DNA of 64,000 bases, taken from positions 124,001 to 188,000 of the forward strand of contig JAJDCD010000004.1 of NCBI GenBank assembly GCA_029261035.1, written 5' to 3'. A program made the position numbers and the translations under genes. The notes beneath the pieces are model-generated. The model had not been told where the DNA came from, searched no databases, and saw nothing but the letters and a program-made list of their open reading frames with translations. Shown here piece after piece: positions 25,138 through 53,016 of this stretch. Position 1 is the stretch's first letter. Every line of letters begins with the position of its first letter. The DNA is from Candidatus Omnitrophota bacterium. Its GTDB lineage: Bacteria > Omnitrophota > Omnitrophia > Omnitrophales > JACROU01.

Positions 25138-25154
25138 TTTTTATCCTCGGCTTA

Positions 25155-25250
25155 TTAGCGTAGAGCGTTTAGCTTGGAGCGTATAGGTTTCCTTTGTCTT
25201 TTTTAGGCAAAAGATCTATCCGCTCCACGCTATGCGCTAAACGCTAATTA
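25155..25250 (+). repeat. Inverted pair of the AGCGTTTAGCGTAGAGCG repeat
   Basis: The left arm (25155-25187, TTAGCGTAGAGCGTTTAGCT...) and right arm (25214-25250, ...CGCTATGCGCTAAACGCTAA) are imperfect inverted copies of the same roughly 33-bp sequence, separated by 26 bp. The right arm runs into the trpS stop codon. Other copies: 26305-26329, 26471-26499, 28430-28461, 42491-42523. Confidence 0.75.
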
Positions 25251-28461: not shown

Positions 28462-28489
28462 GCTCATTTGCCTTTTTCCCCGACCCAAT

Positions 28490-28571
28490 TGTCATCCCCG
28501 ACTTGATCGGGGATCTAGTGTCTTTTGCATTCAACTATCCAATGGATCCCGGATCATGTCCGGGATGACAA
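28490..28571 (+). repeat. Palindromic GTCATCCCCGA...CGGGATGACA element
   Basis: TGTCATCCCCGACTTGATCG at the left and CATGTCCGGGATGACA at the right form an 82-bp palindromic unit with a small hairpin in each half (CCCCGACTTGATCGGGG and CCCGGATCATGTCCGGG). It fills the manC-manB gap together with the AGCG repeat. Confidence 0.75.
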
Positions 28572-36495: not shown

Positions 36496-36579
36496 GCTCA
36501 GAGATTGCTCTTCGCCGCGAGTTCACAAAAGTGACAATCACTTTTGTGCTGTCTGAGCGCCGGAGAGCAATCTCTGAGC
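36496..36579 (-). repeat. Structured core repeat, copy 1 (3' of gltX)
   Basis: A perfect 16-bp outer stem (GCTCAGAGATTGCTCT 36496-36511 with 36564-36579), then the fixed core GCCGCGAGTT (36514-36523), a perfect inner hairpin (CACAAAAGTG/CACTTTTGTG), and the fixed core CTGTCTGAGCGCCG (36549-36562). It starts 19 nt after the gltX stop in the sense direction. A C-rich tract (36460-36478) lies to the left, as in the other copies; the ATCGA-loop hairpin of copies 2 and 3 is not recognisable here. Confidence 0.8.
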
Positions 36580-36597: not shown

Positions 36598-37920
36598 TTA
36601 TTCCTTAAAAGGAAGCTCCCCTAGATTTTCGATCACAAACCCTATTCTCTTAAGAACTTTCTCTTTTCCTAACAATTCCATAACCTCAAAAAGCCCCGGA
36701 CTCACACCCCAACCTGTAATTGCCACTCGTATCGGATGAATCAACGTCGCCGCATTCACCCCTAACGTTTCAGCCGTTTTCCGAACACACTCCTCTAAAC
36801 CTTTTTCTGTAAAGTCGCTCAACGCTTCACATGCAGAAAGAACAGAAGTGAGAATGCGACTAACTCCATCTACCTTTAAATATTTTTCAACAGAACTCTT
36901 GTCATACACCAAGGAATCACAAAAACAATAATCAGCTTGAATCAACACATCCTTCCACGTCTTAATGCGTGTCTGAAAAAGCATAAACACTTTCCTAACA
37001 TCTTCTTCAGAGCATCTCTCAGGAAAAAGTTTTCTGTTCTTCAAAAAAGACAACCCTTCTTCAGCACAATCTTCTGGCTTCATCTTTTTTAAATGTTCAC
37101 TATTAATATAGTTTAACTTTTTTTGATTAAATCCAGCATTCGCTGAATTAACACGTTTTAGAGAAAATTTCTTAATCAGAGCTTCTTTAGAAAAAAGCTC
37201 TTCATTTCCTCCTGGCCCCCAACCCAACAGAGCCAAATAGTTCAACAAAGCTTCTGGAAGATACCCTTCCTCTTGATAAGAGACTAAAGATACGTTGCCA
37301 TGACGTTTGGATAAAGGAGCTCCGTCATCCCCCACAATCAAAGGAAGATGCGCATACTTAGGGATCTTCCACCCAAAGGCCTCATACAAAAGAATATGCC
37401 TAGGTGTATTCGAAACATGATCTTCTCCTCGAATAACATGAGAAACCTCCATATCATGATCATCGACAACACATGCAAAATGATATGTTGGAAAACCATC
37501 CGACTTTAAAATAACTAAATCATCAAAAAGAGAAGCGTCGAATTCTATTTTCCCTTTAACCACATCCCAGAAGACGACTTGTTTATGAGGCATTTTAAAT
37601 TTTATTGCAGGCGTATCATCAACCTTGTAAGCCACCCCCTCAGCAACAAGCTGCTGAGCTAATTCTTGATAGCGAGGTAAATGCTCCGTTTGTCGTGAGA
37701 TGTCCCCATCCCACTCCATACCAATCCACTTCAAACTATTCAAAATCTCATGCGTAAACTCTTCAGCGGAACGCTCTTGATCCGTATCTTCTATACGAAG
37801 AACAAATTGGCCTCCTTGATTTCGGGCGTAGAGATAGTTAAACAAAGCCGTTCGCACACCTCCAATATGAAGATGCCCAGTGGGTGATGGGGCAAAACGT
37901 ACTTTAATGTTATTAGACAT
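36598..37920 (-). CDS. gltX: Glutamyl-tRNA synthetase
   Basis: 440 residues, a little short for the family (usually ~470-490). FAPSPTGHLHIGGVRTALFNYLYAR (HIGH motif), LRIEDTDQERS, YHFACVVDDHDMEVSHVIRGEDHVSNTPRH and LSKRHGNVSL (KMSKS variant) are present; the alpha-helical anticodon-binding part is C-terminal. Charges tRNA-Glu; whether it also mischarges tRNA-Gln cannot be told from the window. Directly follows the indolepyruvate oxidoreductase gene. Confidence 0.95.
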   Translation of the reverse strand: MSNNIKVRFAPSPTGHLHIGGVRTALFNYLYARNQGGQFVLRIEDTDQERSAEEFTHEILNSLKWIGMEWDGDISRQTEHLPRYQELAQQLVAEGVAYKVDDTPAIKFKMPHKQVVFWDVVKGKIEFDASLFDDLVILKSDGFPTYHFACVVDDHDMEVSHVIRGEDHVSNTPRHILLYEAFGWKIPKYAHLPLIVGDDGAPLSKRHGNVSLVSYQEEGYLPEALLNYLALLGWGPGGNEELFSKEALIKKFSLKRVNSANAGFNQKKLNYINSEHLKKMKPEDCAEEGLSFLKNRKLFPERCSEEDVRKVFMLFQTRIKTWKDVLIQADYCFCDSLVYDKSSVEKYLKVDGVSRILTSVLSACEALSDFTEKGLEECVRKTAETLGVNAATLIHPIRVAITGWGVSPGLFEVMELLGKEKVLKRIGFVIENLGELPFKE

Positions 37921-42581: not shown

Positions 42582-42730
42582 AACAAAATTTGGCTCGATG
42601 CCAAACTTTGTTACCCCTCCCCACACAAAAAAATATGTGTACTCCCTAAGGAGGAGGAAGCATTCCTTACCGCCGCGAGTTGCGCAGGGCAAAGCCCGAG
42701 CATGTCTGAGCGCCGGAAAGGAATACTTCC
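42582..42730 (-). repeat. Structured core repeat, copy 2, with ATCGA-loop hairpin (3' of dxs)
   Basis: 149 bp. On the plus strand: a 13-bp hairpin AACAAAATTTGGC-TCGAT-GCCAAACTTTGTT (42582-42612), the C-rich tract ACCCCTCCCCACAC, 30 nt, then an outer stem (42656-42668 with 42718-42730), core GCCGCGAGTT, an inner hairpin GGGC-AAA-GCCC, and core TGTCTGAGCGCCG. The two imperfect stem positions (42588/42606 and 42661/42725) are A-C mismatches on the plus strand but U-G wobbles on the minus strand, which favours a minus-strand RNA. It begins 38 nt after the dxs stop. Confidence 0.8.
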
Positions 42731-42768
42731 GACGACTAAAACTTCCCACAACCACCCATTTTTTCCAA

Positions 42769-44655
42769 TTAACTTAAAGCAGAAAGGTCTTTAGTTTTAT
42801 CTAAAATAGTTTTGGAGATCTTTTCAGGAGTAAGACCAAACTTATCAAAAATAATCTCACGCTCCCCATGCTGAATCACCTCATCCGGCACAGCAATTCG
42901 CTGAACATCCACATTCCTCAACTCATTTCTTTCACAAAATTCCAAAACACGCGCCCCTAACCCACCCGAGTACACATGATCTTCAATCACCACCCATTTG
43001 GTAATAGACTCTGAAAGTTTTTTCAATAAAGTTTCATCTAGTGGCTTAGCAAATCTTAAGTTTACAACCGTCGCTTGAATCCCTTGTTCTCTTAACAACT
43101 CTCTAACCACGAGCGCTCTAGAAACAAAAGACCCTATCGCCAAAATTGCTACATCATTCCCATCTGCAACAATTTCACCCTCACCAATCTTAAAGAGGTT
43201 CTTTGCTTCCCCTTCAATTTCAGGAACATTTTCTTTAGGATAACGAATTGAAAACACACCTTGATGTTCTAAAGATAAACGCATCATCTGATTCATTTCA
43301 AAATCAGTCCAAGGACTACAAATCACAGAGTTAGGAATCACTCCTACATAACCAATATCAAACAAACCTTGATGTGTTGGACCATCAGGACCTACTACTC
43401 CAGCTCGATCCAAACAAAAGGTTACATTAACATCTTGTATTGTTACATCGTGAATCAGTTGGTCAAAAGCTCTTTGAAGAAAAGTAGAATAAATGGCACA
43501 AATGGGCTTTATCCCCGATCGGGCTAATGCTCCTGCAAATGAAACAGCATGCTGTTCAGCAATACCAACGTCAAAAAAACGATCTGGAAATTTATCTTGG
43601 AAGGGTCTCAACCCTGTTCCTTCTCTCATCGCTGCCGTAATTGCAACAACCTTAGGATCTTCCTCTGCTAGAAGTGTCAAATTATTCACAAAACAATTGG
43701 TATAACTCAAAGGAGCTGGAGTTACTGTTGCTTTTTTCTTTGGAGCTCCTGATTCCAAATGAAACGGCTGAACTCCATGAGAAGTTACAGGGTCTTTCTC
43801 TGCAAATTCACACCCTTTCCCCTTCTTAGTAATCAGATGAAGCAAAATAGGTTTTTTAATATCTTTGATATTTTTAAATAATTTAACCAGCTCTTTAACA
43901 TCATGGCCATCTACCGGACCAAAATAGCGAAAACCTAATTCCTCAAAAACAATCCCAGGCACTAATAAATTCTTAAAACCTTCCTCAGCATTCTTAACCA
44001 ATTTTCTTAACCGAGGAAAATTATTAAGTTGTTCTTCTAATTTTTTTCTAACGCGATTATAAATAGGGGCAGAAATAATTCTATTGAGATAAGTGCTAAT
44101 TGCTCCTACATTTGGAGAAATAGACATTTCATTATCATTGAGAATACAAAGAAAATCTGTTTTGATGTGGCCAGCGTTGTTTAAAGCTTCATAACAAACA
44201 CCACCCGTTAACGCTCCATCACCAAAGATAGAAACTATTTTTTCATCTCCACCCTTCAAATCTCGGGCAACCGCAAGACCTAAACCTTGAGACACTGCTG
44301 TGGAGGCGTGTCCAACACTAAAATGATCATGAACACTTTCAGTATGGCTCGTAAAACCACTTAAACCTTCATATGTACGAATCGTTTTCATTCGATCCCG
44401 CCTGCCCGTAATCAGCTTATGCGCATACACCTGATGACCCACATCCCAGACGAACTTATCTTTCGGAGAATCAAAAACATAATGAAGAGCCACAATCAAA
44501 TCAACCGTACCCAAAGACGCCCCTAAATGCCCCCCTGTTTCAGAGGTTATCTCTACAAGCTCTTCTCTTAAACCAGCGCACACCTCGGGCAATTGCTCTA
44601 TCGATAGCTTCTTTAAGTCTTCTGGGCTTTTAATCGTTTCAGACAATCGGGACAT
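42769..44655 (-). CDS. dxs: 1-deoxy-D-xylulose-5-phosphate synthase
   Basis: 628 residues. TPP motif GDGALTGGVCYEALNNAGH, substrate-site GHLGASLGTVDLIVALHYVFDSPKDKFVWDVGHQVYAHKLITGR, then the transketolase central domain (DVGIAEQHAVSFAGALARSG, YSTFLQRAFDQLIHD, DRAGVVGPDGPTHQGLFDI) and C-terminal domain (IVADGNDVAILAIGS, VVIEDHVYSGGLG). First enzyme of the MEP isoprenoid route, and the last gene of xseB-ispA-dxs. Confidence 0.96.
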   Translation of the reverse strand: MSRLSETIKSPEDLKKLSIEQLPEVCAGLREELVEITSETGGHLGASLGTVDLIVALHYVFDSPKDKFVWDVGHQVYAHKLITGRRDRMKTIRTYEGLSGFTSHTESVHDHFSVGHASTAVSQGLGLAVARDLKGGDEKIVSIFGDGALTGGVCYEALNNAGHIKTDFLCILNDNEMSISPNVGAISTYLNRIISAPIYNRVRKKLEEQLNNFPRLRKLVKNAEEGFKNLLVPGIVFEELGFRYFGPVDGHDVKELVKLFKNIKDIKKPILLHLITKKGKGCEFAEKDPVTSHGVQPFHLESGAPKKKATVTPAPLSYTNCFVNNLTLLAEEDPKVVAITAAMREGTGLRPFQDKFPDRFFDVGIAEQHAVSFAGALARSGIKPICAIYSTFLQRAFDQLIHDVTIQDVNVTFCLDRAGVVGPDGPTHQGLFDIGYVGVIPNSVICSPWTDFEMNQMMRLSLEHQGVFSIRYPKENVPEIEGEAKNLFKIGEGEIVADGNDVAILAIGSFVSRALVVRELLREQGIQATVVNLRFAKPLDETLLKKLSESITKWVVIEDHVYSGGLGARVLEFCERNELRNVDVQRIAVPDEVIQHGEREIIFDKFGLTPEKISKTILDKTKDLSALS

Positions 44656-44662
44656 GATCAGA

Positions 44663-45484
44663 CTACTTCTTTCTATTTAATATAAGATCTGCTATTTCTG
44701 CTAATCTTTTAGACTTTGAATTCAAAAATTGGATGCTCTTTTTTGCTTTAACCGTCACACTAGACGCTTCATTGAAAGCTTCATGACGGGACATTATACG
44801 TGTAAACCCGTCAGAGTCCAGTATATCATCCACAATTTGGAAGGTGAAACCGAGGTGACATCCATAATCATCCATTGCCTTCAAATGTTGCTTTGAAGCT
44901 TTAGCTATAAGTGCTCCAGATAAACAACTTACACGAATCAGCTGCCCCGTTTTCTGTATATTCACATAAGAAATCTCTGGCAGCTCTAAAGACTCTTTAT
45001 TCTCTAATTCTTTATCTACAACTTGCCCACCTACCATACCCATCGATCCTATAGCATGTGTAATTAAAGGAAGTAACTTATGAACAACCTTACTATCTTT
45101 AACCTCACTCAAAATTTGAAAGGCGATCGTCAATAGAGCATCCCCTGTTAAAACAGCATTCGCTTCTCCGAATCTCTTATGACATGTTGGTTTTCCACGA
45201 CGGTAATCATCATTGTCCATACAAGGAAGGTCGTCATGCACTAGTGAATAACAATGAATAAGCTCTAAAGCACATGCCGCAGGAAGCACATCTTTAAGTT
45301 TTCCACCCAAAGCCTCACATACTGCGATCGCTAAAATAGGACGAAAGCGCTTCCCTCCATTAAAAACAGAATAACGCATCGCTTGATGAATTGTTTTTGG
45401 GTAAGCTGTACTTTTAGGAAGGTAATTTTTGAGGGCCTCTTCCACAATTTTTTTATTTTTATCGAAATATTGTTTTAGTGTCAT
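44663..45484 (-). CDS. ispA: Polyprenyl (farnesyl) diphosphate synthase
   Basis: 273 residues. First Asp-rich motif DDLPCMDND in LVHDDLPCMDNDDYRRGKPTCHKRFGEANAVLTGD, and second DDILD in FQIVDDILDSDG. KRFRPILAIAVCEALGG and KTGQLIRVSCLSGALIA match short-chain synthases. Condenses IPP with DMAPP/GPP. Translationally coupled to xseB by a TAATG overlap and 7 bp before dxs, a classic xseB-ispA-dxs order. Confidence 0.95.
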   Translation of the reverse strand: MTLKQYFDKNKKIVEEALKNYLPKSTAYPKTIHQAMRYSVFNGGKRFRPILAIAVCEALGGKLKDVLPAACALELIHCYSLVHDDLPCMDNDDYRRGKPTCHKRFGEANAVLTGDALLTIAFQILSEVKDSKVVHKLLPLITHAIGSMGMVGGQVVDKELENKESLELPEISYVNIQKTGQLIRVSCLSGALIAKASKQHLKAMDDYGCHLGFTFQIVDDILDSDGFTRIMSRHEAFNEASSVTVKAKKSIQFLNSKSKRLAEIADLILNRKK

Positions 45485-45792
45485 TAAAAAAGGCTTCCCT
45501 CATCTTCATCTGATTTAGAAGATTTCTTTTTACGTGTTTTTTTTAAAGCTCCTGTAGATTCATCTTGTTCTAAATCAAAATCTTCAGTTTCAATCTTACC
45601 ATTCAATGCTTTGGTTAAAATTTCAACTTTTTTTTCAGCTTGGGTCAATTTCTCAGTACAAATTCGAGATAATTTCACCCCTTCTTCATATTGTTTTATC
45701 GCATCTTCCAAAGAAACATCCCCAGACTCTAACTGAGAAACAATACTCTCCAACTGATCAATTGCCTTTTCAAACTTTACTTCTCCGCTCAT
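45484..45792 (-). CDS. xseB: Exodeoxyribonuclease VII small subunit
   Basis: 102 residues. The XseB signature KFEKAIDQLESIVSQLESGDVSLEDAIKQYEEGVKLSRICTEKLTQAEKKVEIL is complete; a ~35-residue acidic/basic tail follows (SKSDEDEGSLF). Partner of XseA, whose gene lies just upstream but is separated by a 229-bp repeat-filled gap. SD GGAGGAGGTG is very strong. Confidence 0.94.
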   Translation of the reverse strand: MSGEVKFEKAIDQLESIVSQLESGDVSLEDAIKQYEEGVKLSRICTEKLTQAEKKVEILTKALNGKIETEDFDLEQDESTGALKKTRKKKSSKSDEDEGSLF

Positions 45793-45842
45793 AAAACACC
45801 TCCTCCTTTTACGCTTAATAATTTATTTCGGATTCAAACCGC

Positions 45843-45862
45843 ATTTCCGCACATGCGGAAAT
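45843..45862 (-). repeat. Small hairpin between xseB and the structured repeat
   Basis: ATTTCCGC-ACAT-GCGGAAAT is a perfect 8-bp stem. It lies inside a weaker outer pairing (AATTTATTT near 45820 with AAATAAATT near 45874), so the region upstream of xseB holds further structure beside the 149-bp element. Confidence 0.5.
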
Positions 45863-45874
45863 ACCTTCAACCAA

Positions 45875-46023
45875 AATAAATTAGGTGCTCGATGCACCTA
45901 ATTTATTATCCCTCCACACCCCCTAAAGAAGTAAAGAACCATGGAGTTACCCTCGCCGCGAGTTCACAAAAATCGCATTTCAATTTTTGTGCTGTCTGAG
46001 CGCCGAGGGTAACTCCATGGTTC
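45875..46023 (-). repeat. Structured core repeat, copy 3, with ATCGA-loop hairpin (3' of xseA)
   Basis: 149 bp, the same span as copy 2. Perfect 14-bp hairpin AATAAATTAGGTGC-TCGAT-GCACCTAATTTATT (45875-45907), C-rich tract ATCCCTCCACACC, then a perfect 19-bp outer stem (45936-45954 with 46005-46023) that reaches into the xseA stop codon (46022-46024). It encloses core GCCGCGAGTT, a perfect 9-bp inner hairpin (CACAAAAAT/ATTTTTGTG) and core CTGTCTGAGCGCCG. Stem sequences differ completely from copies 1 and 2. Confidence 0.82.
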
Positions 46024-47317
46024 ACAACAACCTCTTAACCTTCTCAACCCTCTTAACTTCCGACTCCACAACCCCCTTACCCAACTGCGTCCTAATCATC
46101 TCCCCAACCTTCAACTGCCCAGCTTCCCTAACCGGCTTCATCTTCTCATCCACCGTAACACTATACCCTCTAGACAAAATCCCCAAAGGACTCAAAGCAT
46201 CCAATTGGGCCAGTAATTTAGAAAATCCCGCTTTCTTTTGCAACAAAACATTACTCAACAAAGGAGTCATCTGAATTCGAGACAACTGAATTCTCTTATC
46301 CGATACCACACCCAAAAGATAATTCGACATCTGCCTCAAAAGCTCATCCAATCTCTGCCTTGCTTGTTCTACTAATCGCTCTGGTTGCGTCAGCGCATAA
46401 CTCTCTTTCGCATTCGTGATTCTCTCTTTTAAATCTTCTAAAAGATTCTTAACAGCCAAAAGCATTCTTTCTTTATTTTCTCTCAACTGCCCCAACAACT
46501 CATCTCGACTCGGAACCGCTATCTCAGCCGCTTGAGAAGGAGTCGCCGCTCTCTTATCCGCAACAAAGTCACTGATCGTCACATCCACTTCATGGCCCAC
46601 TGCAGAAATAATTGGAATTTCAGAATTAAAAATAGCACGCGCTACAACTTCTTCATTAAAAGCCCATAAATCTTCTAAACTTCCTCCTCCACGTCCCACA
46701 ATCAAAACATCACATAACTTATGCTTATTCATCGACTCAATCGCTTCTACAATTTCTTCTCGAGCACCGTCCCCTTGCACTTTAACGGGGTATAATAAAA
46801 TCGGTATCCCAGGGAACCTCCTCTGAGACACATTAATAATATCTCGAATAACAGCCCCTGTTGGAGACGTAATCACCCCAATTCTTTCCGGCAAAAATGG
46901 GATCTCTTTTTTATATTCTTCTTCAAACAAACCTTCATTCTTCAACTTTTCAATCAGCTGTCTCAAAGCCAGCTCTAAGGCCCCAACACCTTTCGGCTCT
47001 ACTCTCTCAACAACAATCTGATAATTCCCACGCTTTTCATAAACAGTCACTTTCCCAAACACCACAACCTGCAACCCATCTTTCATTTCAAAAGGAATTT
47101 TTGCGTTTACGTTTCTAAAAATAACTGCGGAAATTTGAGCTCCTTCATCTTTTAAACTCAAATACATATGTCCAGAAGAATGGTGTACTAGATTAGATAT
47201 TTCTCCCTCAATCCAAACAGAACCATACTGAGTTTCGAGAGAACGTCGAATTTGTCGGGTAATATCTGAAATGGAATGGATTGTTTTTTGTTGCTCATCT
47301 TTTTCTAAATCAAGCAT
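46022..47317 (-). CDS. xseA: Exodeoxyribonuclease VII large subunit
   Basis: 431 residues. OB-fold N-terminus (SVWIEGEISNLVHHSSGHMYLSLKDEGAQISAVIF), catalytic core ERIGVITSPTGAVIRDIINVSQRRFPGI, DVLIVGRGGGSLEDLWAFNEEVVARAI, IPIISAVGHEVDVTISDFVADKRAATPSQAAE, a coiled-coil region (about 285-365) and the C-terminal segment SPLGILSRGYSVTVDE. Degrades single-stranded DNA with XseB. Its stop codon forms the base of the structured repeat. Confidence 0.95.
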   Translation of the reverse strand: MLDLEKDEQQKTIHSISDITRQIRRSLETQYGSVWIEGEISNLVHHSSGHMYLSLKDEGAQISAVIFRNVNAKIPFEMKDGLQVVVFGKVTVYEKRGNYQIVVERVEPKGVGALELALRQLIEKLKNEGLFEEEYKKEIPFLPERIGVITSPTGAVIRDIINVSQRRFPGIPILLYPVKVQGDGAREEIVEAIESMNKHKLCDVLIVGRGGGSLEDLWAFNEEVVARAIFNSEIPIISAVGHEVDVTISDFVADKRAATPSQAAEIAVPSRDELLGQLRENKERMLLAVKNLLEDLKERITNAKESYALTQPERLVEQARQRLDELLRQMSNYLLGVVSDKRIQLSRIQMTPLLSNVLLQKKAGFSKLLAQLDALSPLGILSRGYSVTVDEKMKPVREAGQLKVGEMIRTQLGKGVVESEVKRVEKVKRLL

Positions 47318-48139: not shown

Positions 48140-48166
48140 AAGACTCCTCTTGTCCTGCTTATAGTT

Positions 48167-48236
48167 TATAGCTCTTGGCTTTTGGTTGAATTTATTATCA
48201 AAAAATGCTTTTACCAAAAGCTAAGAGCCAAAAACC
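48167..48236 (+). repeat. Inverted GCTTTTGG repeat
   Basis: TATAGCTCTTGGCTTTTGGT (48167-48186) and ACCAAAAGCTAAGAGCCAAA (48213-48232) are imperfect inverted copies separated by about 26 bp, forming a long hairpin in the ymdB upstream gap. Related sequence is at 29961-29990 and 53074-53100. Confidence 0.65.
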
Positions 48237-48870: not shown

Positions 48871-48983
48871 GTCATTGCGAGGCATTAGAAAGTCGAGCCG
48901 TGGCAATCTCAGATTAAGGGAAGAAAGGTCCGTCTCAAAACCAAGAGATTGCCGCAGCTCCTTTGTGGAAGCCTCTCAATGAC
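48871..48983 (+). repeat. Palindromic GTCATTGCGAGG...CCTCTCAATGAC element
   Basis: 113 bp with terminal inverted GTCATTGCGAGG (48871-48882) and CCTCTCAATGAC (48972-48983), and internal CGTGGCAATCTC against GAGATTGCCGCAG. A second, better preserved copy is at 51750-51855. The outline is MITE-like, without a transposase. Confidence 0.8.
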
Positions 48984-51749: not shown

Positions 51750-51855
51750 GTCATTGCGAGGCTAAAACAAAAAGAGCCGTGGCAATTTCAGGTTTTTACT
51801 TCTTATTCATCCCGAGATTGCCACGGCTCAATATGTCGATACCTCGCAATGACAG
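51750..51855 (+). repeat. Palindromic GTCATTGCGAGG...CCTCGCAATGAC element
   Basis: Terminal inverted repeats CGTCATTGCGAGG (51750-51762) and CCTCGCAATGACAG (51842-51855), with internal GAGCCGTGGCAAT pairing to ATTGCCACGGCTC: almost the whole unit is one long hairpin. Same family as 48871-48983. It lies just downstream of the lipase gene's 3' end. Confidence 0.8.
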
Positions 51856-52904: not shown

Positions 52905-53016
52905 TCCCCTCTCCCTTTTTAAGGGAGAGGGCTAGGGTGAGGGTTTGAGTTGATTTAGAATTTACCATTAAACCACCCTCACCTTAATCCTCTCCCTCCA
53001 AAGGAAGGAGAGGAAA
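52905..53016 (+). repeat. CCCTCTCCC/GGGAGAGGG palindromic repeat
   Basis: CCCCTCTCCCTTTTTAAGGG and AGAGGGCTAGGGTGAGGG at one end, and ACCACCCTCACCTTAATCC with CTCTCCCTCC...GGAGAGG at the other, form nested hairpins over 112 bp. I recall similar sequences in many unrelated bacterial genomes. The gap 52854-53262 holds this element, an orphan ATTCCCGC arm, a GCTTTTGG repeat and tRNA-Arg. Confidence 0.7.

Follow-up and report, generated by a model that had tools for sequence, protein, structure and literature searches.

A dispersed family of gene-end hairpins with a conserved internal loop and variable, compensating stems in Omnitrophota and other bacteria

What kind of element places the same short core behind different genes, each time inside stems of a different sequence? 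The question is raised by a stretch of 64,000 nucleotides from a metagenome-assembled genome (MAG) of a Candidatus Omnitrophota bacterium (GenBank GCA_029261035.1, contig JAJDCD010000004.1, positions 124,001 to 188,000; hereafter the window), in which an earlier reading, made from the letters alone, had noticed three such nested hairpins between genes. What does not vary in them is an internal loop (GAGTT opposite TGTCTGA) set between an outer stem and an inner hairpin, and the same core was found inside long, differing stems in other phyla, namely in Coriobacteriales, Eisenbacteria, Planctomycetota, a gammaproteobacterium and other Omnitrophota. Our favored explanation, to which we assign a probability of about 0.45, is a dispersed, non-autonomous hairpin family that behaves like repetitive extragenic palindromes (REPs) or miniature inverted-repeat transposable elements (MITEs), stands outside the tagged REP families, is recognized through its structure and is kept at the 3′ ends of genes.

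The internal loop and its stems

Covariation tests bore out the proposal that pairing, and not the bases, is conserved. An initial alignment showed change on both sides at 22 of 29 pairs; none of 500 shuffles reached its score, and slid controls collapsed. Among 89 non-redundant copies drawn from six groups, the outer pairs 5–16 were paired in 96.2% of cases, a value somewhat inflated by selection since copies were admitted with at least 8 of 12 outer positions paired; swapping right arms among copies left 49% paired (57% when swapped within groups), and each of these pairs showed two to four Watson-Crick types. The constancy of GCGAGTT in this set is by construction, as the search demanded it. 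The right core strand, for which limited variation was allowed, is mainly TGTCTGA and otherwise TGTCCGA or TGTTTGA, and the C.C mismatch beside it is kept in 79 of the 89 copies. Tandem G.A pairs can indeed form on the plus strand of the window copies, as had been suggested; a classical kink-turn on the core strand was rejected by eye, the tandem G.A being present without a 3-nt bulge at the right place.

The loop also occurs in circularly permuted form (stem-TGTCTGA-GC-GNA-GC-GAGTT-stem) in Fusobacteria, Bacteroidota and Marinobacter, at loci that were found by core search and so carry no estimate of frequency. Its carriers are Ilyobacter (six copies, with loops GAA, GTA and GCA), Parabacteroides, Marinobacter and a viral contig (L226), while none of the 47 genomes of the window's own order held the permuted core. 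In Ilyobacter pILYOP01 the permuted loop lies within a dispersed repeat of about 500 bp, where a possible H-type pseudoknot, drawn by eye, interleaves GTTACTTTT/AAAAGTAAC with CCTTGA/TCAAGG. Because the loop survives permutation, its two-strand geometry is suggested to be what matters. We consider it conceivable, and put it forward tentatively, that these loci belong to a previously undescribed, multi-phylum class of protein-bound elements defined solely by a two-strand loop module, functional whichever way it is circularly permuted, whose flanking helices are free and which compensatory change keeps at gene 3′ ends. An Rfam scan of the permuted loci returned nothing on the element itself; a TwoAYGGAY RNA (43.6 bits, cut-off 43) lies at 1226–1350 of the Marinobacter plasmid (L231), some 150 bp away from the permuted copy.

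Copies in the window, the home genome and other lineages

The sequences and coordinates of the three window copies hold, and with them the original observation as a whole. Their core spans are 36514–36562, 42672–42715 and 45955–46005, and the features are as follows.

36496–36579, plus: copy 1, complete nested hairpin, 3′ of gltX (covariance-model match 36497–36578, 68.9 bits)
36496–36514, plus: copy 1 outer stem, left arm, whose partner is the right arm at 36561–36579
36515–36523, plus: copy 1 fixed core, left strand CCGCGAGTT
36524–36549, plus: copy 1 inner hairpin, variable (CACAAAAGTGA...TCACTTTTGTG)
36550–36562, plus: copy 1 fixed core, right strand TGTCTGAGCGCCG
42582–42612, plus: copy 2 TCGAT-loop hairpin, a module of the home-genome version
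42656–42730, plus: copy 2, complete nested hairpin, 3′ of dxs (covariance model 51.2 bits)
42673–42681, plus: copy 2 fixed core, left strand
42703–42715, plus: copy 2 fixed core, right strand
45875–45907, plus: copy 3 TCGAT-loop hairpin
45936–46023, plus: copy 3, complete nested hairpin, between xseA and xseB (covariance model 68.7 bits)
45956–45964, plus: copy 3 fixed core, left strand
45993–46005, plus: copy 3 fixed core, right strand
36598–37920, minus: gltX (TIGR00464, NCBIfam equivalog)
42769–44655, minus: dxs (TIGR00204, NCBIfam equivalog)
45484–45792, minus: xseB
46022–47317, minus: xseA (TIGR00237, NCBIfam equivalog)

With up to two mismatches, TGTCTGAGCGCCG has three matches in the window against 0.28 expected, a number that none of 100 shuffles reached. 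Outer and inner stems of the three copies vary in sequence with pairing kept, and relative to shuffles the two strands fold as RNA with z-scores of −10.5/−8.5 (copy 1), −3.9/−5.2 (copy 2) and −9.7/−11.2 (copy 3). The TCGAT-loop hairpins also fold beyond shuffles (z −5.5 in copy 2, −7.6 in copy 3), and each composite of hairpin and element measures 149 bp. The placement of the copies 3′ of minus-strand gltX, dxs and xseA is upheld by the protein family assignments, and the stem of copy 3 does reach the xseA stop codon, overlapping it at 46022–46024. The genes xseA and xseB are usually adjacent; here copy 3 splits them (45484–47317), and copy 2 splits dxs from the NAD kinase gene.

In the home genome the exact core, CCGCGAGTT-N-TGTCTGAGCGCCG with both strands and a free centre, has 29 matches (reversed-pattern control, none), a shorter core pattern has 35, and a covariance model recovers 52 copies; within the order, 9 of 47 genomes match the model. 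Where a right-hand gene was called, it lay on the opposite strand with its 3′ end facing the element in 26 of 28 copies, mostly 17–57 nt from the core. Outer stems are nearly all distinct among these copies and inner hairpins fall into few classes (CACAAAA..TTTTGTG, GCGCAG..CGAGC and a long GTGACAGTCAC form). Most copies carry extra modules on the left, comprising a TTTCGTTAT/ATAACGAAA hairpin, the TCGAT hairpin, whose loop sequence GCTCGATGC stands left of 23 of 49 copies, and a C-rich linker. The sequence-only reading had described the TCGAT hairpin and C-rich tract for copies 2 and 3, and here a correction applies: the internal-loop core is common to phyla, but these two modules belong to the home-genome version only. 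The dispersed unit runs from about −210/−260 to slightly beyond the outer stem, with shared similarity stopping near the stem foot, and since paralogues at unrelated genes share about 270–330 bp at 74–90% identity, the home-genome element is part of a dispersed repeat of about 300 bp. Contigs of the MAG break at or beside elements (the starts of C1, C16 and C19 and the end of C21), so copy number may be underestimated.

Among 84,980 species genomes, at least 103 stretches carry the exact core, in Olsenella, Thermophilibacter, Atopobium, Omnitrophota, Eisenbacteria, Planctomycetota and one gammaproteobacterium; as the pattern scans need an exact core, such counts are lower bounds. The Omnitrophota entries among these stretches share their element sequences with the relatives of the home genome at the level of the order, in agreement with its placement in Omnitrophota. 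Matches were present in 35 of 197 Coriobacteriales genomes (few hits for the reversed control), with 6–30 copies in each of eight Atopobiaceae and 3–7 in each of the sparse carriers. Carriage by phage was rejected, as none of 2.9 million viral contigs held the window-type core and one held a permuted 20-mer, and so was plasmid spread of the window-type hairpin, for which the plasmid search gave merely weak chance matches.

In Atopobiaceae, where gene ends were taken from codon-scored calls because plain longest-open-reading-frame calls are unreliable in GC-rich loci, 44 copies are antisense-only versus 11 sense-only, and close pairs are always minus-then-plus (14 of 14). Together with the home-genome counts, these figures bear out the expectation of many copies at gene 3′ ends. 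The element turns over between related species: at 62 sites in T. provencensis syntenic with copies in other Atopobiaceae, 13 keep the core, 4 have it inverted and 45 are without it, loss being judged by exact pattern, so that some of the 45 are degenerate.

Folding strand, relatives and competing explanations

On the core strand, apical triloops are GNA in 28 cases and TNC, which is GNA on the other strand, in none. Outer stems of Atopobiaceae show 30 G.T against 12 A.C on that strand (de-duplicated, p = 0.008), with no clear dependence on gene orientation, and those of other Omnitrophota 17 against 0, some of these copies coming from a wobble-tolerant model and without de-duplication. Because of the triloops and the G.T excess, the core strand, usually opposite to the mRNA, is favored as the folding strand, not decisively. 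A structured mRNA strand, on which the two stem mismatches of copy 2 become U-G, is not supported by the triloops or by the wobble pairs of other lineages.

Tagged REPs (GTAG/CGTC, RAYT) are palindromic, multi-copy and extragenic, mainly 3′ of coding regions (PMC3733652, PMC8266576), and typically form pairs in opposite orientation (PMC3733652); those of E. coli require a conserved stem bulge and are recognized strand-specifically as single strands (PMC3733652, PMC8266576). The element resembles them in being extragenic, 3′ of genes and found in inverted pairs. It differs in size (80–90 nt versus 20–50), in stems that are free and not family-fixed, and in spreading over several phyla with one fixed loop. 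No GTAG/CGTC tag was seen at the stem foot, where logos show just A enriched 5′ of the stem (86%/55%). With tags absent, size unlike and Y1 transposases not tracking the element, membership of RAYT/REP was rejected. The dispersed, non-coding 300-bp repeat of the home genome is like a MITE, whereas in-place compensation of structure is not, and terminal inverted repeats of an insertion sequence or target duplication were not established. Integron attC sites are imperfect palindromes 3′ of genes; they fold as a single strand in which certain unpaired bases are conserved while the stems vary. The element shares its gene-3′ imperfect palindrome, conserved unpaired bases and variable stems with them, but its copies are scattered over the genome behind housekeeping genes and not in a cassette array, and the core sites GTTRRRY/RYYYAAC are absent, the core GTT being followed by CAC, GCG, CTT, CCG or TCG among the copies listed. 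Like an intrinsic terminator it is a hairpin just past a stop codon, but it is very long and nested, with a fixed internal loop and no U-tract in GC-rich lineages. Rfam returned only tRNAs in the window and otherwise sub-threshold chance matches, and a literature search by sequence strings, partial in its coverage, found unrelated papers and no description of the element, in line with the initial failure to recognize a family.

Beyond the dispersal shown in the home genome, we infer a recognizer, a molecule on which it acts and some chemistry of insertion. The recognized part would be the two-strand loop GAGTT/TGTCTGA, closed by G-C pairs and with tandem G.A opposition, between two sequence-free helices; the folding molecule would be the core strand, as single-stranded DNA or as RNA made from that strand; a trans-acting protein would bind the loop and disperse the element; and copies would be retained immediately after stop codons, at a place where a strong hairpin does no harm or can serve as a transcript end.

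Several observations weigh against this REP- or MITE-like explanation. No mobilizing enzyme was found: Y1 transposases (PF01797) occur in 36 of the 47 genomes of the order and do not track the element, one genome (G006) having nine copies and none of these enzymes. The syntenic comparison in T. provencensis yielded no clean empty site, so that entry of the core into a terminator stem already in place is neither shown nor excluded; nor did a target duplication come to light. Wobbles are neutral in the home genome (G.T:A.C 13:12), and the mRNA strand of copies 2 and 3 folds more stably. Placement behind stop codons is tight, since of the 68 opposite-strand genes to the right of copies in Atopobiaceae 55 end 27–46 nt from the core, and orientation follows the gene. 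Orthologous Atopobiaceae loci show 223 double compensating against 94 one-sided changes (86 pairwise, non-independent comparisons) and inner hairpins differ in 107 of 113 orthologous comparisons; pairing is therefore kept in place while sequence drifts, which is needless for a dead mobile repeat. Because copies are retained behind stop codons and compensated in place, a use at gene ends besides mobility is suggested.

Such a use is the substance of the strongest rival, which we regard as somewhat unlikely: that the element acts in the message of the upstream gene, as its terminator or as a hairpin protecting its 3′ end, and binds a protein through the internal loop. In this mRNA the core appears as its reverse complement (UCAGACA ... 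AACUC). The opposite-strand gene ends (26 of 28 in the home genome), the antisense excess in Atopobiaceae (44 versus 11) and compensation at orthologous genes speak for this, as do the A-rich sequence before the stem in the home genome (a weak U-rich stretch in the mRNA; adjacent base A in 86%) and a terminator scan that was empty between gene stop and element at the three window copies. Against it, no U-tract extends past one base in Atopobiaceae or Eisenbacteria; GNA triloops and G.T wobbles favor the other strand; a minority of copies is sense-oriented; and copies 2 and 3 lie inside an xseA-xseB-ispA-dxs-NAD kinase run that strong termination would cut. It thus does better than the REP- or MITE-like explanation on position and compensation and worse on strand signals and missing U-tracts. 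The original interpretation, which offered a terminator, a 3′-end RNA structure or a mobile cassette, is supported in part, the cassette fitting the home genome best by virtue of its dispersed repeat and the other two remaining serious competitors.

It is improbable that the element is a mobile structured RNA from the core strand, with the window copies a permuted, reduced version of fuller forms in which internal loops are stacked and an H-type pseudoknot follows downstream. A permuted loop with a possible A-B-A′-B′ pseudoknot of differing sequence behind it (CCTTGA/TCAAGG, CTTGAA/TTCAAG, CTTGACC/GGTCAAG; TCGC/GCGA) is indeed common to Ilyobacter, Parabacteroides and viral contig L226, and the GNA loops are on the core strand; but the pseudoknot was drawn by eye at very few loci, without statistics, none was seen in the window copies, and a promoter scan was at chance level. 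Less credible still are neutral palindromes, whose arms DNA polymerase template switching (quasi-palindrome conversion) would keep complementary irrespective of function. Conversion would give the excess of double changes at orthologous sites, and T. provencensis is rich in other long gene-end palindromes, but it leaves unexplained why GAGTT/TGTCTGA never becomes paired and why one loop recurs across phyla and in two permutations.

Gene ends in bacteria are poorly annotated beyond textbook terminators, and the family of gene-end hairpins is apparently large and uncatalogued. One invariant loop, from Omnitrophota to Olsenella and, permuted, in Fusobacteria and Bacteroidota, implies a widespread unnamed binding partner, and more than 200 copies with strong covariation make the idea directly testable, Olsenella and Thermophilibacter being culturable.

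Other gene-end palindromes

The GAGTT/TGTCTGA element is one family within a wider habit of gene-end palindromes. Of some 830 genes called in T. provencensis (1.2 Mb), about 200 have a long hairpin at their end, and several other families there likewise combine a fixed inner motif with a variable outer stem (TGACAAAGGTGACAGGG.., GTGCAAAAGTGCCTGTCCCC.., TTGGGGACTGTCCCCAA and CCAGCTCAC..GAAGTCGCTGG), one family holding an ordinary terminator in its loop. The window itself has two copies of a second palindrome (48895–48960 and 51774–51829), GAGCCGTGGCAATCTC ... GAGATTGCC(A/G)CGGCTC, whose centres differ, and further long intergenic inverted repeats at 25154–25248, 28489–28571, 48164–48235 and 52922–52997 (stems of 33, 27, 23 and 23 bp), among them TTGTCATCCCCGACT...GGGATGACAA and AGGGAGAGGGCTAGGGTGAGGGT.

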